Source: Polyangiaceae bacterium (GTDB lineage: Bacteria > Myxococcota_A > Polyangia > Polyangiales > Polyangiaceae). From it: DNA of 64,000 nt. The notes beneath the pieces were generated by a model. That model had not been told where the DNA came from. It was given only the letters and a program-made list of their open reading frames with translations, and made no database searches. Each line of letters opens with the position of its first letter. Positions within the stretch are counted from its first letter, which is position 1. Shown here one piece after another: positions 49,898 through 63,889 of the stretch. The position numbers and the translations under genes were made by a program. Location: positions 1 to 64,000 of the forward strand of contig JADLEQ010000011.1 in the NCBI GenBank assembly GCA_020846005.1, written 5' to 3'.

Positions 49898-51781
49898 TCA
49901 GGGCGTGGGGTCGTGCGCAGCGGCCGCTGCGCTCACGCGCCCTGCGGCGTCACGGTAGGCGGCGGCGATCGCCGGATCCCGCGGGCGCGCTCGGAGCGCG
50001 ACCGCCAAGTGGCGCTCCGCGGCGCGGACGTCGCCGCGCTCGAGCTCGTACCGGCCCGCGTCGAGCAGCAGCGCGCCCGCCTCGAGCGCGACGCGTCCGG
50101 TCTCCACCAGCTCACGGAGCCGCGCCCAGGCGAGCGACGCGCCCTCCACGTCCCCGACCGCGGCACGCCACCGCGCCTCGAGTCCACGCGCGTCCGCGGC
50201 CTCGGCCGCGCCGGCGGGCACCTCGCGCACGCGCGCGATGGCCTGCGGGAGATCGCCCAGGCGCTCGGCGAGCACCCGCGCGAGCTCGACGAGCGCGCGA
50301 CTGGAGCGGACGCCCCGAGCCTCGGCGAGCGCCACCGCCCGCTCGAGCAGCGCGAGCCCACGCTCCGCGCGGCCGGTGGCGAGCAGGGAACGCGCCAGCC
50401 CGGTCGTCGCGTCCACGTCGTCCGGCACGTAGCGCAGCGCGCGCTCGAACACGCGGCCCGCCTCGCGCACGAAGCCCGCCTCGATGAGCTGCGCCCCGAC
50501 GCTCGCGCACACCTCGTGCCGCGCGCGCGCGCCGGACGCCGCCGCCTCGAGCATCGCGGCGTCGGAGAGCGCGTCGTCGACGTCCCCGATCGCCAGCCGG
50601 CAGCCCAGCCGCCGGCGGCGCGCCTGCTCGAGCGCCGGCGCCAACGCGACGGCCTGGTCGAGCGCCCGCAGCGCCGCGGCGGGCTCAGCCTCGAGCTCGG
50701 CGAGGCGCACGAAGATCCCCGCCGCGGCCGGCGCGAAGCGCTCCAGGCGCGCGGCGGCGGCCGCGGCCTCTCGGGCGCCGTCGAGATCGCCGGTGCTCGC
50801 GAGCAGCTCAGCGGCGATCAGCCCCCCGTGCAGCGCCGGCGTCGCCTCGGCGAGCAGCCCGAGCGCTGCCTCCGCGCGCCCCCCCGCGGCGACGTCGAGC
50901 TCCGCCACGAGGCGCGCGAGCTCCGGGTGCCGGGGGGCGCGCTCGAGCGCCGCGAGGTATCCAGCGCGCGCTGCGTCCCGCTCGCCAGCGGCGAGCGCGT
51001 CGTCGGCGGCGACGACGAGCCCCGCGAGCTCCAGGTGCCGCGTCGCCTCGCCGCCGGCGGGCGGCATCGGCGCGTCCGCGTCGAACCCGATCCGCAGCTC
51101 GTCCCCCTCGACGGAGGCGGAGGCCAGCCGTGCGGCGGCGGCCGACGGCGCGCGCATCCCGATGTCGGGCAGCACGAGGCGCGCGACCGCGCGGGCCGGG
51201 CCGGCCAGCGTCACGGTGCGACCGGCGCGGGCCGCGACGGGGCCGAACGCCGCGTCGACGGCGCGGAGCGCGTGGCCGAGCGCGGGGCCGCCCAGCCCGG
51301 CGCCCCGCGCGTTCGCGACGACCAGCTTGAGATCCACCGGATCGGCCACCCAGAGCAGCTCGAAGGCGAGCACCGCGGTGCGCCCCACGAGCCCGACCGC
51401 GAGGCCGCCCTCGACGCCCCACAGCGTCGGCGGGCGCACCGGCTCGCGGAGCACCTCCCGTAGCCGCGGCTCGAGGTACGCGCCGAGCCGCGCCAGGCTC
51501 GCGCGGAGCTCGAGCCGCGACAGCTCGCCGCGTCGATGACGGAACGTCCGCACGCCGCCCGATAGGTCAACGGGGAAGCGCAGCCCCACCAGAGACGTGA
51601 CGAGCTCGGACACCTCGACCGGCCCGAGCTCGACCGGCGCGTGCAGCTCGATGCCGAGCCTGCCGCGCGCGACCGCCAGCCGGAGCGGGAGCCCCCGCGG
51701 CGGACGCGCCCCGGCCCCGGCGGGCTCCGGAGGCTCGGCGGCTCTGGGGGCAGGCGAGCTGGTCGACACGGGACGGAGCAT
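49898..51781 (-). CDS. Large TPR-repeat protein
   Basis: Protein of 627 residues. The first 270 form an alpha/beta domain of unknown type (GLPLRLAVARGRLGIELHAP, VGLRFPVDLSGGVRTFRHR, LVVADDALA). The rest is a run of at least eight helix-turn-helix TPR-like units (AARAGYLAALERAPRHPELA, AGRVFERALRYVPDDVDATT, AERHLAVALRARPRDPAIAA). No signal peptide or membrane helix is seen, so it is likely a cytosolic scaffold. ATG 51781 was chosen since it begins the structured part and lies 41 nt after the mlaC stop; the two may be co-transcribed. Partner proteins are unknown. Confidence 0.78.
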   Translation of the reverse strand: MLRPVSTSSPAPRAAEPPEPAGAGARPPRGLPLRLAVARGRLGIELHAPVELGPVEVSELVTSLVGLRFPVDLSGGVRTFRHRRGELSRLELRASLARLGAYLEPRLREVLREPVRPPTLWGVEGGLAVGLVGRTAVLAFELLWVADPVDLKLVVANARGAGLGGPALGHALRAVDAAFGPVAARAGRTVTLAGPARAVARLVLPDIGMRAPSAAAARLASASVEGDELRIGFDADAPMPPAGGEATRHLELAGLVVAADDALAAGERDAARAGYLAALERAPRHPELARLVAELDVAAGGRAEAALGLLAEATPALHGGLIAAELLASTGDLDGAREAAAAAARLERFAPAAAGIFVRLAELEAEPAAALRALDQAVALAPALEQARRRRLGCRLAIGDVDDALSDAAMLEAAASGARARHEVCASVGAQLIEAGFVREAGRVFERALRYVPDDVDATTGLARSLLATGRAERGLALLERAVALAEARGVRSSRALVELARVLAERLGDLPQAIARVREVPAGAAEAADARGLEARWRAAVGDVEGASLAWARLRELVETGRVALEAGALLLDAGRYELERGDVRAAERHLAVALRARPRDPAIAAAYRDAAGRVSAAAAAHDPTP

Positions 51782-51822: not shown

Positions 51823-52437
51823 TCAGCCCGTCCGCTCCTCCTTGGCGAGCTTCTTCTTCATCTTGTCGACCAGCGCCGCGAAGCTCTCCTTCCGGATGAC
51901 TCGCTGGAACTGCCGGCGGTAGTTGCGCGTCAGGCTCGATCGCTCGGTGACGATGTCCACCACCCGCCACTCGTCGCCCTGCAGGCGCATCACGTAGTCG
52001 ATGGTCACGGGCTCCTCGCGGGTGTTCTTGCGGTGCTTCGCCACCGTCATCACCACCACGCCGCGCTTCTTCTTCTTGAAGCCCTTGAACTCTACGTCAT
52101 AACCCTTGGTTTTCTCTAGATTTTTTCGATACGCGGCGCGCACGAGGCGCTTCAACAGATCCGTGAACTCCCGGCGCTGGTCGTCGTTCAGATCCGCCCA
52201 GCTCTTCCCGAGCGAGTCCTTGGCGAACGCCTCGTAGTCGATCAGCTCGTCGAACAAGGAGTCGACGCGGGCGCGGTCGGGTGCGGGCTTCGCCACCTCC
52301 GCGGTGAGCTGGCCTTGCTTGTCCTTGAGCCGCGCCTCGGCGGCCGGGTTGGCTCCGACGGAGGCCGGGAGGGAGAGGGCGGCCACCGCGACCGCGACCG
52401 AGAAGATGCGCCTCATCATGCTGCCGTAGTTTCTCAT
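51823..52437 (-). CDS. mlaC: MlaC-family phospholipid-binding periplasmic protein
   Basis: Periplasmic lipid shuttle of 204 residues (MlaC/Ttg2D family), which carries phospholipids between the outer-membrane and inner-membrane parts of the Mla system. A signal peptide (MRRIFSVAVAVAALSLPASVGA) is followed by the family core: YEAFAKDSLGKSWADLNDDQ, RREFTDLLKRLVRAAYRKNL, TIDYVMRLQGDEWRVVDI, SLTRNYRRQFQRVI. ATG 52437 was used; ATG 52419 or 52416 would give a more usual signal peptide. No mlaD, mlaE or mlaF is in the window. A perfect sigma-54 site lies 14 nt upstream of 52437, so expression looks NtrC-type regulated. Confidence 0.87.
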   Translation of the reverse strand: MRNYGSMMRRIFSVAVAVAALSLPASVGANPAAEARLKDKQGQLTAEVAKPAPDRARVDSLFDELIDYEAFAKDSLGKSWADLNDDQRREFTDLLKRLVRAAYRKNLEKTKGYDVEFKGFKKKKRGVVVMTVAKHRKNTREEPVTIDYVMRLQGDEWRVVDIVTERSSLTRNYRRQFQRVIRKESFAALVDKMKKKLAKEERTG

Positions 52438-52451
52438 TCTGCTCTTCCTAC

Positions 52452-52466
52452 GCAACCTCGGTGCCA
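52452..52466 (-). promoter_or_regulatory. Sigma-54 (RpoN) promoter before mlaC
   Basis: TGGCAC-N5-TTGC on the minus strand (TGGCAC 52461-52466, TTGC 52452-52455) is an exact match to the -24/-12 consensus with correct spacing and orientation. Transcription would start near 52441, just before the mlaC start. It lies in the gap right after the PilS-like kinase gene. Confidence 0.65.
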
Positions 52467-52550
52467 GATCTTCGCCGGGACGGCGCCGCGACGCGCGGCG
52501 CCCGGGCCGCGCTCGGCGGCCGTGCGCGCCCCGCGGGTGTGACCCGCCGT

Positions 52551-53882
52551 TCACTCCCCACCAGACGCGGGGATCCCGGGGTCCGCCGCCGGCCGGAGCT
52601 CCGGGCCGAGCCGCACCCGGAAGCGTGCGCCGTGGCCACGCTCGCTGTCGACCTCGATCCGGAACCCGTGATCGTCGGCGATGCGCTTCACCACCGCCAG
52701 ACCCACCCCGGTGCCCTTGGAGCGTGTGGTGAAGAAGGCGTCGAAGAGGCGCGCGCGATCGGCGGGGTCGATGCCGACCCCGTCGTCTTCCACGTCCAGG
52801 GTGAGCGCGCCGCCTTCGCCGAGCAGCCGGACGCGCACCTCGCCCCCGGCGTGCGACGCCTGGACCGCGTTCCGGACCAGGTTCCACACGAGCTGCCGAA
52901 GCTGCGCGGCGTCGGCCTCGATCAGGCCGACCTCGACGCCGTCGTAGGTGACGCCCACGTCCTCGCCCCCGCGCCCGGAGCGCGACGCGAGCGCCACCAC
53001 GTCGCGCGCGAGCGCCCCCACGTCGACCGGGCGCGGATCCGGCTTCCGCGGGCGCGCCAGGTCCATCATGTCCTCGACGAGGTCCTCGAGCCGGGCCGCC
53101 TCGCGCTGGATGATGTCGCAGAGCTGGCGATCCTCGTCGCCGAGCGCGTGCGCCGACTTCAACAGGCCGACCGAAGCGGTGATCGACCCGAGCGGATTGC
53201 GGATCTCGTGCGCCAAGCCGGCCGCCAGCGAGCCGAGCGCCGCGAGGCGCTCCGCCTCGGTCGCGCGGGCCTCGGCGCGGGCGACCTGACCCCCCGCGGC
53301 GCGGAGCCGCTCCGCCAGGTAGCCAGCGAGCTGCGTGACGACCACCACGGCCAGCGCGTTCACCGTCGCGTGGAAGCCGAGCTCCATCGGGTCGGCGACG
53401 TAGGCCTCCGCGGGCTGGTCCGGCGGGATCGGCAGCCACCCCCGGAGCTGCCCCAGCGCGAGCACCGAGTAGCTCGCCGCGGCGGCGACGGCCGCGACGG
53501 TGGCCCCCCGGAACCCCGTGAGGCTGGCGCCCGCGAGGCACGTGAGCCCGTAGAGCGAGGTGGCGCCGCTCATCGCGCCACCGGAGAGGTACGCCACGAC
53601 CGTCCACGCGATCTGGTCGAGCACGAGCTGCGCGTGGGCGAGCAGCACCAGGTGCTTCCCGCTCCGCAGGACGGCTGCGTAGCCGCCGGCGAGCGCGTAC
53701 GCGGCCGCCAGCGTGAAGAGCGAGAGCTTCGGCGTGAAGCTCGGCGCCGCGTCGACCCGAAGGTAGAGCCAGGCGAGGATCCCGAGCAGCGCGGAGAGCA
53801 GCGCGAGGCGACCGAGCGTCACCCAGGTGAGGCGACGCGCCAGCGAGACCCCGACGATCGGCTCCGCCCCGGGCTCCGGCAT
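52551..53882 (-). CDS. pilS: PilS-like membrane sensor histidine kinase
   Basis: Sensor kinase of 443 residues with about six transmembrane helices in residues 19-192 and no large periplasmic domain, a short coiled linker, the phospho-acceptor box AHEIRNPLGSITASV (His225), the N box NLVRNAVQASHAGG, and the G boxes DVEDDGVGIDP and KGTGVGLAVVKRI. The topology and its place 24 nt after pilC match PilS in Myxococcus, where the order is pilC-pilS-pilR-pilA. Here pilR and pilA are not next; mlaC with a sigma-54 promoter follows. The identity as PilS is inferred from context and topology; a general HATPase kinase is the alternative. Confidence 0.78.
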   Translation of the reverse strand: MPEPGAEPIVGVSLARRLTWVTLGRLALLSALLGILAWLYLRVDAAPSFTPKLSLFTLAAAYALAGGYAAVLRSGKHLVLLAHAQLVLDQIAWTVVAYLSGGAMSGATSLYGLTCLAGASLTGFRGATVAAVAAAASYSVLALGQLRGWLPIPPDQPAEAYVADPMELGFHATVNALAVVVVTQLAGYLAERLRAAGGQVARAEARATEAERLAALGSLAAGLAHEIRNPLGSITASVGLLKSAHALGDEDRQLCDIIQREAARLEDLVEDMMDLARPRKPDPRPVDVGALARDVVALASRSGRGGEDVGVTYDGVEVGLIEADAAQLRQLVWNLVRNAVQASHAGGEVRVRLLGEGGALTLDVEDDGVGIDPADRARLFDAFFTTRSKGTGVGLAVVKRIADDHGFRIEVDSERGHGARFRVRLGPELRPAADPGIPASGGE

Positions 53883-53906: not shown

Positions 53907-55121
53907 CTAGTCCGCCTTGATGTTGCCTGCGAGCGAGAAGATCGGCAGGTACATGGAGACGAGCACGACGCCCACCATGCCGCCGACGCCGACCATCATG
54001 ATCGGCTCGAGCGAGCTCGTGAGGGCCGCCACGGCGACGTCGGTCTCCTCCTCGTAGAAATCGGCGATCTTGTTGAGCATCTGGTCGAGCGCGCCCGTCT
54101 GCTCACCGACGGCGATCATCTGCACCACCATGTCGGGGAAGACCTTGGTCTCGGTGAGGGGCTCGGCCATGTTCTTGCCCTCGCTGATCTTCTGCCGAAC
54201 ATGCAGGACGGCCGCCTCGATGATCACGTTGCCGGCCGTCCGCGCGCAGATGTCGAGCGCGTCGAGGATGGGGACGCCGGACTGCAGCAGCGTGCCGAGC
54301 GTCCGCGTGAACCGCGCGACGGCGATCTTGCGCAGCACGCTCCCGACGATCGGCAGGTTGAGCAGCAGCCGATGCCAGAACGCCTTACCCTTGGGCTGGC
54401 GGTAGGTGTACATGAACGCCCCCACCACGCCCGCGACGACCAGCACGATGAGCGGGAGGTACGACACGAAGCCGTGGGAGACGGCCATCATGATCTGGGT
54501 GAGCTTCGGCAGCTGCTCCTTGCCCCCGCCGAAGTCCTTGAACATGTTCTCGAACGCCGGGATGACGAACGTCAACAAGACGGTCATGACGCCGGCGGCG
54601 ATCACGACGACGACGGACGGATAGACCATCGCGCCGCGGACCTGGGTGATGAGCTTCTGCCGCTTCTCGATGTACACCGAGAGGCGGGTCATGATGGTGT
54701 CCAGGATGCCGCCCGCCTCGCCCGCCTGGACGAGGTTCACGAACAGCGTGTCGAACACGGTCGGGTGCCGCCGCAGCGCGTCGCTGAAGGTCGTCCCCTG
54801 CTCGACCGAGCTCTTCACGTCCTTCAGGACGACCTGGAAGCGCTTGTTCTTCTGCTGGGACGCGAGGATGTCGAGGCACTGCACGAGCGGCAGGCCGGCG
54901 TCGATCATGGTCGCGAAGAGGCGCGTGAAGGTGACGAGCTCCTTGGTGGACACCCCGCCGCCGAAGGAGAACGAGAGCTCCCTCCCCTTCTTCTTGACCT
55001 TGACGGGGGAGAGCTGCTGCTGGCGGAGGCGGTTCTGGACGGCCTCTTCGTCGTCCGCCTCCATCACCCCCTTGCGGACCTCACCGGTGCGCGCGCGGGC
55101 TTCCCACGTGAATTCAGCCAT
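53907..55121 (-). CDS. pilC: Type IV pilus inner-membrane platform protein PilC
   Basis: Inner-membrane platform protein of 404 residues for type IV pili, which in myxobacteria power twitching (social) motility. It has the N-terminal TWEARARTGEVRKGVMEADDE domain, then two T2SSF domains: FTRLFATMIDAGLPLVQCLD and ARFTRTLGTLLQSGVPILDA, each with the GE motif (QAGEAGG, VGEQTGAL). Three membrane helices are visible, the last at VGVGGMVGVVLVSMYLPIFS. ATG 55121 has CGGAG upstream. pilB and pilT, usually just upstream, are absent; a serine hydrolase gene diverges instead. It has its own promoter and is followed by the PilS-like kinase. Confidence 0.95.
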   Translation of the reverse strand: MAEFTWEARARTGEVRKGVMEADDEEAVQNRLRQQQLSPVKVKKKGRELSFSFGGGVSTKELVTFTRLFATMIDAGLPLVQCLDILASQQKNKRFQVVLKDVKSSVEQGTTFSDALRRHPTVFDTLFVNLVQAGEAGGILDTIMTRLSVYIEKRQKLITQVRGAMVYPSVVVVIAAGVMTVLLTFVIPAFENMFKDFGGGKEQLPKLTQIMMAVSHGFVSYLPLIVLVVAGVVGAFMYTYRQPKGKAFWHRLLLNLPIVGSVLRKIAVARFTRTLGTLLQSGVPILDALDICARTAGNVIIEAAVLHVRQKISEGKNMAEPLTETKVFPDMVVQMIAVGEQTGALDQMLNKIADFYEEETDVAVAALTSSLEPIMMVGVGGMVGVVLVSMYLPIFSLAGNIKAD

Positions 55122-55146
55122 GCAGCTCCGAGAGACCTTCCGCGTG

Positions 55147-55176
55147 AGCATACGTTCCTCCGCCCCTCCCGGTCAA
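55147..55176 (-). promoter_or_regulatory. Promoter of pilC and the PilS-like kinase gene
   Basis: TTGACC (55171-55176), 18-bp spacer, TATGCT (55147-55152), leader of about 20 nt with a CGGAG ribosome site. The -35 touches the start of the divergent hydrolase gene. Confidence 0.6.
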
Positions 55177-55177
55177 A

Positions 55178-56275
55178 ATGCTCCCTGAACGCCGCCCCTC
55201 GCTCGACGAGATCGCGCGAGATCACGTGGTTCGGCCCGGCGTCGCGGCCGCGGCGGCGGTGGGCGCGGCCCGGCGCACCTCGCGAGGCTGGGACACGGCC
55301 GTCGGGTGCGCGGGGACGGGGCCGAGCGGGCCGATCGAGCCGAGCGTGCCGTTCGACCTCGCCTCGGTGACCAAGCCGCTCGTCGCCTGCGCGGCGGCCC
55401 GGCTCGCGCGCGCGGGGCGCGTCCCGCTCGAGGCGCCGGTGGGGCGCTGGCTGCCCGAGGCCCGAGGTACGCCGACGGAGAGCGTCCCGCTCGAGCTGTT
55501 GCTCGCGCACCGAGCGGGCCTCGCGGCGCACGCGCCGCTCTTCGCGCCGCTCGTCGCGCGCGCCCCGGTCGACGTGGCCGCGGGGCTGGGACTCGCGGCG
55601 CGCGGGCGCCGCGCCGACTGCCGGGGCGACGCGCCGGAGGGCGGCTTCCCGCCGCTCTACAGCGATCTGGGGTACCTGCTGGCCGGCGCCGCGCTCGCGC
55701 GGGCGACGGGCCGGGAGCTCGACGAGCTGGTGCGCGAGGAGGTCGGCGCGCCGCTGGGTCTCGGGCTGGGGTCCATCCGCCAGCTGGGCGGCGAGGCGCG
55801 GCGCGCTCCGCCCACCGAGGTCGTCAGCTGGCGCGGCGGCGCCGTCCAGGCCTGCGTCCACGATGAGAACGCCTGGGCCCTCACTGGGCACGGGCTCGCC
55901 GGGCACGCCGGCGCGTTCGGCTCGGTGGAGGACGTGCTCCGGTTCGGGGTCGGGCTGCTCGAGGCGTTGGCCGGCCAGCGCCCCGAGTGGCTGCGTCGTG
56001 AGGAGCTCGCGCGGCTGGTCGCGCGGCGACCGGGCGGGACGCTGCGGGCCGGGTTCGACGGCGTCTCGCCGACCGGTTCCAGCGCGGGGCGCCGGGCCGG
56101 GAGCGAGACCTTCGGCCACCTCGGGTTCACCGGCACGAGCCTCTGGTGCGACCCGGCCGCGGAGCGGGTGGTGGTCCTGCTCACGAACCGGGTGCACCCG
56201 ACGCGCACGCACGTCGCGATCCGGGAGGCACGCCCGGCGGTCCACGACGCCCTGTTCGCCTGGGCCGGGGAGTAG
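55178..56275 (+). CDS. Beta-lactamase-family serine hydrolase
   Basis: Class C beta-lactamase/esterase-like enzyme of 365 residues. The SxxK motif is SVTK (Ser63/Lys66), the YxN-type motif is YSD (Tyr161), and a GHLGFTGTS stretch stands in for the KTG-like third motif. LLLAHRAGL and GYLLAGAALARATG are typical. No signal peptide is seen, so it is more likely a cytosolic or peripheral esterase or peptidase than a resistance enzyme. It diverges from pilC with only 56 nt between starts. No clear Shine-Dalgarno sequence is found. Confidence 0.85.
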   Translation: MLPERRPSLDEIARDHVVRPGVAAAAAVGAARRTSRGWDTAVGCAGTGPSGPIEPSVPFDLASVTKPLVACAAARLARAGRVPLEAPVGRWLPEARGTPTESVPLELLLAHRAGLAAHAPLFAPLVARAPVDVAAGLGLAARGRRADCRGDAPEGGFPPLYSDLGYLLAGAALARATGRELDELVREEVGAPLGLGLGSIRQLGGEARRAPPTEVVSWRGGAVQACVHDENAWALTGHGLAGHAGAFGSVEDVLRFGVGLLEALAGQRPEWLRREELARLVARRPGGTLRAGFDGVSPTGSSAGRRAGSETFGHLGFTGTSLWCDPAAERVVVLLTNRVHPTRTHVAIREARPAVHDALFAWAGE

Positions 56276-63221: not shown

Positions 63222-63264
63222 GATCCGCGACATGATCCGCGACATGATCCACGTCATGATCCAC
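63217..63264. repeat. 12-bp tandem repeat over the lipoprotein start codon
   Basis: Four units of GACATGATCCGC (variants end CAC, and the last begins GTC). On the minus strand each unit supplies an in-frame ATG, giving the repeated peptide Met-Ser-Arg-Ile. The last ATG (63221) is the assumed start. Confidence 0.93.
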
Positions 63265-63289
63265 GACAAGAGCATGTCCGAGCCCACTT

Positions 63290-63433
63290 GAGAAGCCCTC
63301 TCGAGGCGAGAAGCCCTCTCGAAGCGAGAAGCCCTCTCGAGGCGAGAAGCCCTCTCGAGGCGAGAAGCCCTCTCGAGGCGAGAAGCCCTCTCGAGGCGAG
63401 AAGCCCTCTCCAGGCGAGAAGCCCTCTCGAACG
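63290..63433. repeat. 18-bp tandem repeat, eight units
   Basis: Eight units of GAGAAGCCCTCTCGAGGC with one or two substitutions (units 2, 7 and 8). Each unit contains TCTCG-AGG-CGAGA or GAGA-AGCCC-TCTC inverted arms, so the array can fold into a row of small hairpins. It fills most of the gap between the divergent lipoprotein genes. Confidence 0.95.
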
Positions 63434-63466
63434 CCCCGGGGGGCGAGAGCTCGGGAGGTCGGGGGG

Positions 63467-63496
63467 TTGCGGGCGGTCCGGCGTGGCTGGTATCCT
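63467..63496 (+). promoter_or_regulatory. Promoter of the 63506 gene (leaderless type)
   Basis: TTGCGG (63467-63472), 18-bp spacer, TATCCT (63491-63496), 9 nt before ATG 63506. No ribosome site is present. It begins 33 bp after the 18-bp repeat array. Confidence 0.5.
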
Positions 63497-63505
63497 TCCC
63501 CGATC

Positions 63506-63889
63506 ATGGTGGCTCTCTCTTCGGTCTCGAGGCGACGGATCATGGGTTGGCTGGGCGGTGCCGCATGGATCGGGCTGCTCGCTCCCGGGTGCAGCGACCC
63601 GGGCGAGGACGCGCGGGCGGTGGCGGAGTCGTGCGGCCAGCAGGAGTGCCCAGTGGGGACGGCCTTCCGCGAGAGTCGTTCGGTCACGAGCGGCGTCGAC
63701 ATCAGCGGTGGCTACGACCCCGCGACGTACAAGGCCGACGGCGCCTACCAGAAGCTGGGGGCCGGCGACTGCGAGTACGTCTGCCAGGTGATCAATTCCT
63801 GCCCGGATGGCACCTTCCCGGTCATCACCAAGGACTGCTTCACGTGCACCGCCATCGTGGGCGGCCAACCCGCCCCCACGCAATGTTGA
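63506..63889 (+). CDS. Small Cys-rich lipoprotein, paralogue of the 60520 N-module
   Basis: Protein of 127 residues with an Arg-containing signal (SRRRIMGWLGG, twin-arginine-like) and lipobox ending at Cys29 (LLAPGC). The mature domain has Cys43, 48, 89, 93, 99, 111, 114 and 127. ECPVGT and DCEYVCQVINSC match CPPGT and SCEVVCESVVPC of the lipoprotein at 60520-62109, so the two share a module. ATG 63506 is preferred because the promoter ends 9 nt upstream. The last bases overlap the next gene. Function unknown. Confidence 0.75.
   Translation: MVALSSVSRRRIMGWLGGAAWIGLLAPGCSDPGEDARAVAESCGQQECPVGTAFRESRSVTSGVDISGGYDPATYKADGAYQKLGAGDCEYVCQVINSCPDGTFPVITKDCFTCTAIVGGQPAPTQC

Follow-up and report, generated by a model that had tools for sequence, protein, structure and literature searches.

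The pilC-kinase-mlaC locus

The window (the whole 64-kb stretch of DNA that was analysed) belongs to a draft genome (5.7 Mb, 119 contigs, 99% complete) and carries on its minus strand pilC, a histidine kinase gene, mlaC and a gene for a 627-residue protein, in that order. The product of pilC (53907-55151, minus strand) is a type IV pilus assembly protein of the T2SSF family, which matches PF00482 with 223.9 bits and the NCBIfam Myxococcus PilC model with 600 bits, under the cut-off of 700 for the latter; a divergent beta-lactamase-like gene starts at 55178, beyond pilC. The next gene (52551-53882, minus strand) encodes a PilS-like histidine kinase of 443 amino acids, as the preliminary description had proposed for this neighbour of mlaC. 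Its HisKA and HATPase_c domains score above their cut-offs, the motifs HEIRNP, NLVRNA, DDGVG and GTGVG are intact, at least five hydrophobic stretches are present, and the 6TM_PilS domain (PF25323) scores 26.6 bits against a cut-off of 27 (E 5.7e-6). Pfam detected no PAS domain at E 0.001 between the membrane and kinase parts, where many relatives of the kinase outside the Polyangiaceae carry about 100 extra residues. Linkage of the kinase gene to pilC is class-wide and the two form an old pair in the class; mlaC was seen beside this pair only in the Polyangiaceae, in which the order is kept in many genera. Because no terminator-like site was seen between the kinase gene and mlaC on their strand, read-through from pilC and the kinase gene into mlaC is possible.

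The mlaC gene (51823-52419, minus strand) encodes a protein with an MlaC domain (PF05494, 112.7 bits against a cut-off of 26) and a probable signal peptide, and in these respects, as in the presence of MCE-domain proteins elsewhere in the genome (three MCE-domain, or MlaD, genes), it resembles known Mla transport systems (MlaC/Ttg2D/HpnM). It differs from them in that mlaC lies apart from the MCE genes, is preceded by a putative sigma-54 promoter, has a TULIP-like/TPR partner, and encodes a product that stays under the strict cut-offs of the equivalog models (22.4 of 195 bits for MlaC and 79.7 of 160 bits for HpnM). The partner gene (49898-51781, minus strand), separated from mlaC by a 41-nt gap, is conserved next to mlaC in about 50 loci and is probably cotranscribed with it. 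Pfam sees only the TPR part of its 627-residue product, for which AlphaFold models (pLDDT 90 and 91) predict an N-terminal domain rich in beta structure, together with a TPR superhelix. A fold search with the full protein returned only TPR and other repeat proteins, and Foldseek found no significant match to the N-terminal domain on its own. The top rows of a VIA-align comparison of this domain were BPI (Z 6.7), CETP (6.6), Der f 7 (5.6) and LBP (5.5), the matches to BPI, CETP and LBP spanning 129-134 residues, with further TULIP proteins lower in the list; this agreement among the top matches is suggestive of a TULIP-like fold, although Z values all below 8 are not proof of one.

The sigma-54 element and the start of mlaC

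Upstream of mlaC lies TGGCACCGAGGTTGC (52452-52466, minus strand), an exact 10/10 match to TGGCAC-N5-TTGC that reads toward mlaC and stands 14 nt before its in-frame ATG at 52437, in full agreement with the perfect, correctly oriented -24/-12 element that the preliminary description had placed there. The element has GG at -24 and GC at -12 with 10 bp between them, and both TGGCAC and TTGC are present; no sigma-70-like site was found in the upstream region searched. This is the sole match in the window, even at one mismatch, a tolerance at which shuffled sequences gave a mean of 1.53, and by count alone a single exact match in 64 kb is not significant. The genome-wide scan for RpoN sites that had been proposed as a check bore out the exact pattern, with 12 matches against one for the reversed pattern and several of the 12 sitting shortly upstream of open frames, but not the relaxed pattern TGGCRY, which was not clearly enriched (48 vs 40) and gave no enriched regulon in the source genome. 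Another exact sigma-54 site was noticed near 51644 of contig C70 (L163), upstream of a FlgD-like frame (flagellar hook protein, identified by eye).

Transcription from this element is predicted to start at 52439-52440 (minus strand), 12-13 nt after the -12 GC, as judged from sigma-54 geometry and from a pyrimidine-purine step 12 or 13 nt past the -12 C in the orthologues. The start codon of most orthologues with an exact site is 33-41 nt from the -12 C (in one, another in-frame ATG lies at 19), and the window ATGs at 52419 and 52416 are 32 and 35 nt from it. Because of these distances, and because the orthologue alignment starts near MlaC residue 8, the most likely first codon of MlaC is at 52419 or 52416, which would give a predicted leader of about 20-24 nt. 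The Shine-Dalgarno-like AGGAAG that precedes the ATG at 52437 would lie upstream of a transcript from the predicted sigma-54 start and hence would be missing from that transcript. It had been suggested that the mlaC mRNA would be almost leaderless or would start at ATG 52419/52416; the former would be true only for ATG 52437, whereas the latter is favoured by the orthologue distances, and a leaderless mlaC mRNA would not be required. At the pilin genes adjoining pilR (L274, L277-L280, L282, L287, L288, L291 and the pilin gene on contig C106 of the source genome) the -12 element is 13-17 nt before the nearest ATG, and their sigma-54 mRNAs would be almost leaderless.

Conservation in the Polyangiaceae

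We compared the window with 60 mlaC regions from other genomes of the family (61 loci; relatives with the same gene were found mostly in Polyangiaceae, Sorangium and other myxobacterial MAGs), scoring a 155-nt stretch (160 to 5 nt upstream of the aligned mlaC start) for sites of at least 9/10 that contain the essential GG and GC. Such a site is present in 21 of the 41 Polyangiaceae loci with the kinase-mlaC order, window included, against 0.15 expected from shuffles, and controls in the same loci yielded none on the opposite strand, one in a stretch 1 kb upstream and none in the stretch after mlaC. Where mlaC has no kinase gene just upstream, none of 20 loci has a site of at least 9/10, and by genus the site occurs in 13 of 24 kinase-linked genera vs 0 of 10 otherwise. 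Co-occurrence of site and linkage gives a Fisher p of 2.8e-5 by locus, a value for which we claim neither significance nor an association of the site with the kinase neighbourhood, because the tree records only three linkage changes and the co-occurrence is inseparable from common descent.

Exact 10/10 sites, with differing spacers, are also found in L100, L105, L113, L118, L120, L121 and L134. The spacer diverges among the orthologues, while GG, GC and the distance between them are constant; in a site-anchored profile of 16 loci GGC, TTGC and then T and A are invariant, and the GAAG upstream is kept in most. The invariant columns GGC and TTGC are those that sigma-54 needs. On a tree built from MlaC and the next protein, the site is present in both main halves, either side of the midpoint root, and needs 8 changes vs a shuffled mean of 15. 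This distribution, together with the length of the end branches (median 0.34 changes per column), argues that the site outlives its surroundings, and the pattern fits an old element that would have been lost several times. A good site is missing from almost half of the loci with kinase linkage, some of them in related genera, and is therefore dispensable or replaceable. The source genome has one rpoN gene, intact (221.6 bits), and a strong sigma-54 activator domain is encoded by 24 genes; in Myxococcus xanthus, loss of rpoN by deletion is reportedly lethal (PMC12316311). Because the site is conserved and these genes are present, the element very probably works as a sigma-54 promoter for mlaC, as had been suggested from the window itself.

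Activators, operators and a possible pilus connection

We consider it likely that this promoter drives an operon of mlaC and the TULIP-like/TPR gene from a start near 52440. RpoN polymerase would sit at 52466-52452, waiting, until an NtrC-type activator, once switched on, opened the promoter, and the resulting mRNA would encode MlaC and the TULIP-like/TPR protein. Periplasmic lipid transport would in this way be under the control of a signal, in addition to any read-through from pilC and the kinase gene. The activator is probably not PilR acting through a pilin-type operator; it may be a different activator, or PilR working in some other way, and may bind close to where the kinase gene ends.

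A search for pilA and pilR elsewhere in the genome had been proposed as a check; pilA and a pilR candidate are both on contig C106: pilA has a 9/10 sigma-54 site, TGGCACGGGAGCTGC, 49 nt before its ATG, and EBP_L008, an NtrC-type response regulator encoded directly upstream of two pilin-like genes, is a PilR candidate by position and by homology, its homologues in three other family genomes (66-69% identical over the part seen) being encoded just upstream of the pilin operon. In 15 of 18 Polyangiaceae pilin promoters the sigma-54 site is preceded by a dyad, GTGAC-N7-GTCAC (one mismatch allowed), which is likely to be the PilR operator; our literature search found no paper joining PilR, pilA and GTGAC. 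The pilin dyad loci are L271-L291 and L267, and the pilR-linked pilin gene of the source genome is at C106:14214. The same dyad was sought at mlaC and is absent from all 28 promoters examined, and none of the 61 loci has an exact copy in the 700 nt upstream of mlaC, a result that tells against direct PilS-PilR control of mlaC as a form of the pilus link hinted at in the preliminary description. When spacers of 0-15 were scanned, one excess appeared for mlaC, post hoc, at spacer 6, in 5 of 28 promoters from four genera vs 0.47 expected. The copy in the window, GTGAACGGCGGGTCAC (52539-52554, minus strand), is GTGAC-N6-GTCAC with one mismatch and overlaps the kinase stop codon; it is a weak candidate, which could be the site of a PilR relative or of PilR in another arrangement, and is offered as a lead only. 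In the search for an activator site 80-200 nt upstream that had been proposed as a check, this spacer-6 dyad was the candidate to emerge; no strong activator site common to the mlaC promoters was found. Longer shared motifs upstream of mlaC were set aside, as the k-mer lists seem dominated by kinase coding sequence.

With nearly an even chance of being right, a different activator, one not fed by the kinase of the window, controls mlaC, and the kinase neighbourhood is an inherited order of no regulatory meaning. The 24 strong activator genes leave ample choice for such a protein, pilC and the kinase gene are an old pair that mlaC has joined only in the Polyangiaceae, and the pilin-type operator is missing at mlaC. 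The promoter is unseen at the 9/10 level where mlaC lies elsewhere (0/20), however, a hint of a local link but no demonstration of it. The gene order itself makes a connection with pilus signalling through the adjacent kinase possible. In its direct form, which we regard as unlikely, the kinase would phosphorylate PilR, and PilR would activate both the pilin genes and mlaC, tying the state of the pilus to outer-membrane lipid traffic. The pilC-kinase-mlaC order in many genera, the occurrence of the sigma-54 site only with that order, the half-site GTGAC that the weak mlaC dyad shares with the pilin dyad, and the PilR candidate, which no other kinase adjoins, would all be accommodated by it; opposed to it are the contrast of 15/18 pilin promoters with 0/28 mlaC promoters in GTGAC-N7-GTCAC and the three linkage changes on the tree, too few to test an association with the site. 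The form in which the kinase acts via an activator that recognises the spacer-6 operator, so that the state of the pilus or of membrane pilin would set outer-membrane lipid transport through the MlaC and TULIP-like/TPR operon, is likewise doubtful. A search with the window kinase by tblastn, which may miss distant kinases, found no similar kinase near the PilR candidate and only one near the response-regulator activators of the source genome, 2.3 kb from EBP_L002. No partner activator adjoining the kinase was seen in the Polyangiaceae. Two genomes of a different family (L211, L212) do have activators alongside the kinase, which were rejected as partners, having no close match to any activator of the source genome.

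It is improbable that the element is a different kind of promoter or a repressor site mimicking sigma-54 DNA, although its flanks give this reading some footing. The core is bordered by GAAG just upstream of the -24 element (52470-52473, minus strand; positional profile of 16 mlaC-group loci) and by GTA immediately 3' of TTGC (52449-52451, minus strand; T and A invariant, G in 15/16 loci), neither of which belongs to the usual sigma-54 consensus, and another factor could read the same DNA. An ECF factor, for example, might read GAAG and GCGTA at -35/-10 distance, the main group keeping GAAG and GTA at a 16-nt spacing. On that account the middle TGGC and TTG would need no conservation, and the separate group of L120, L126, L129 and L145 retains the sigma-54 core only. 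These flanks around the core, as seen at 52473-52449, are typical of mlaC promoters: TTGGCAYN5TTGCGTA has 19 matches in 108 genomes vs 2 for a control, and ten of the 19 are before mlaC. A chance match in GC-rich DNA, with which the lone match in 64 kb and the unenriched relaxed pattern would agree, is rejected, since 13 genera keep the site at this position and shuffles predict it in 0.15 loci.

The sigma-54 promoter that we favour recalls the PilS-PilR control of sigma-54-dependent pilA in Pseudomonas, Myxococcus and Geobacter (PMC6058289, PMC6211767, PMC2725144), in that a PilS-like kinase gene linked to pilC adjoins a sigma-54 promoter and the source genome has a PilR candidate and sigma-54 sites at its pilin genes. 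It differs in that the target is mlaC, no pilR lies between the kinase gene and the promoter, the pilin-type operator is missing and the kinase has no PAS domain. In Myxococcus xanthus an NmpR-dependent sigma-54 promoter inside pilS drives pilR (PMC6211767); there, too, a sigma-54 promoter is found at a pilS gene and its activator is other than PilR, whereas here the promoter comes after the kinase gene and would drive mlaC. Pilus genes in Sorangiineae are scattered, with pilS and pilR apart from the main cluster (PMC6060248), in line with the arrangement in the source genome, and the mlaC promoter beside the kinase gene offers an entry to the wiring of these split pil two-component genes. Our search, which missed most subscription papers and is weak evidence in this respect, found no paper in which MlaC is connected to sigma-54 regulation or to the type IV pili of Myxococcus. 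The regulation of Mla-type lipid transport is little known, and a promoter that requires an activator would make the process switchable; a sigma-54 promoter long kept behind a pilus sensor gene suggests that a signal switches on the lipid traffic of the envelope. This gives a testable tie to the effect of Myxococcus pil two-component systems on outer-membrane vesicle chains, according to work cited in PMC6060248.

Elsewhere in the window, the minus-strand frames at 63254-63702 contain a run of near-identical repeats (REGFSPREGFSP...).
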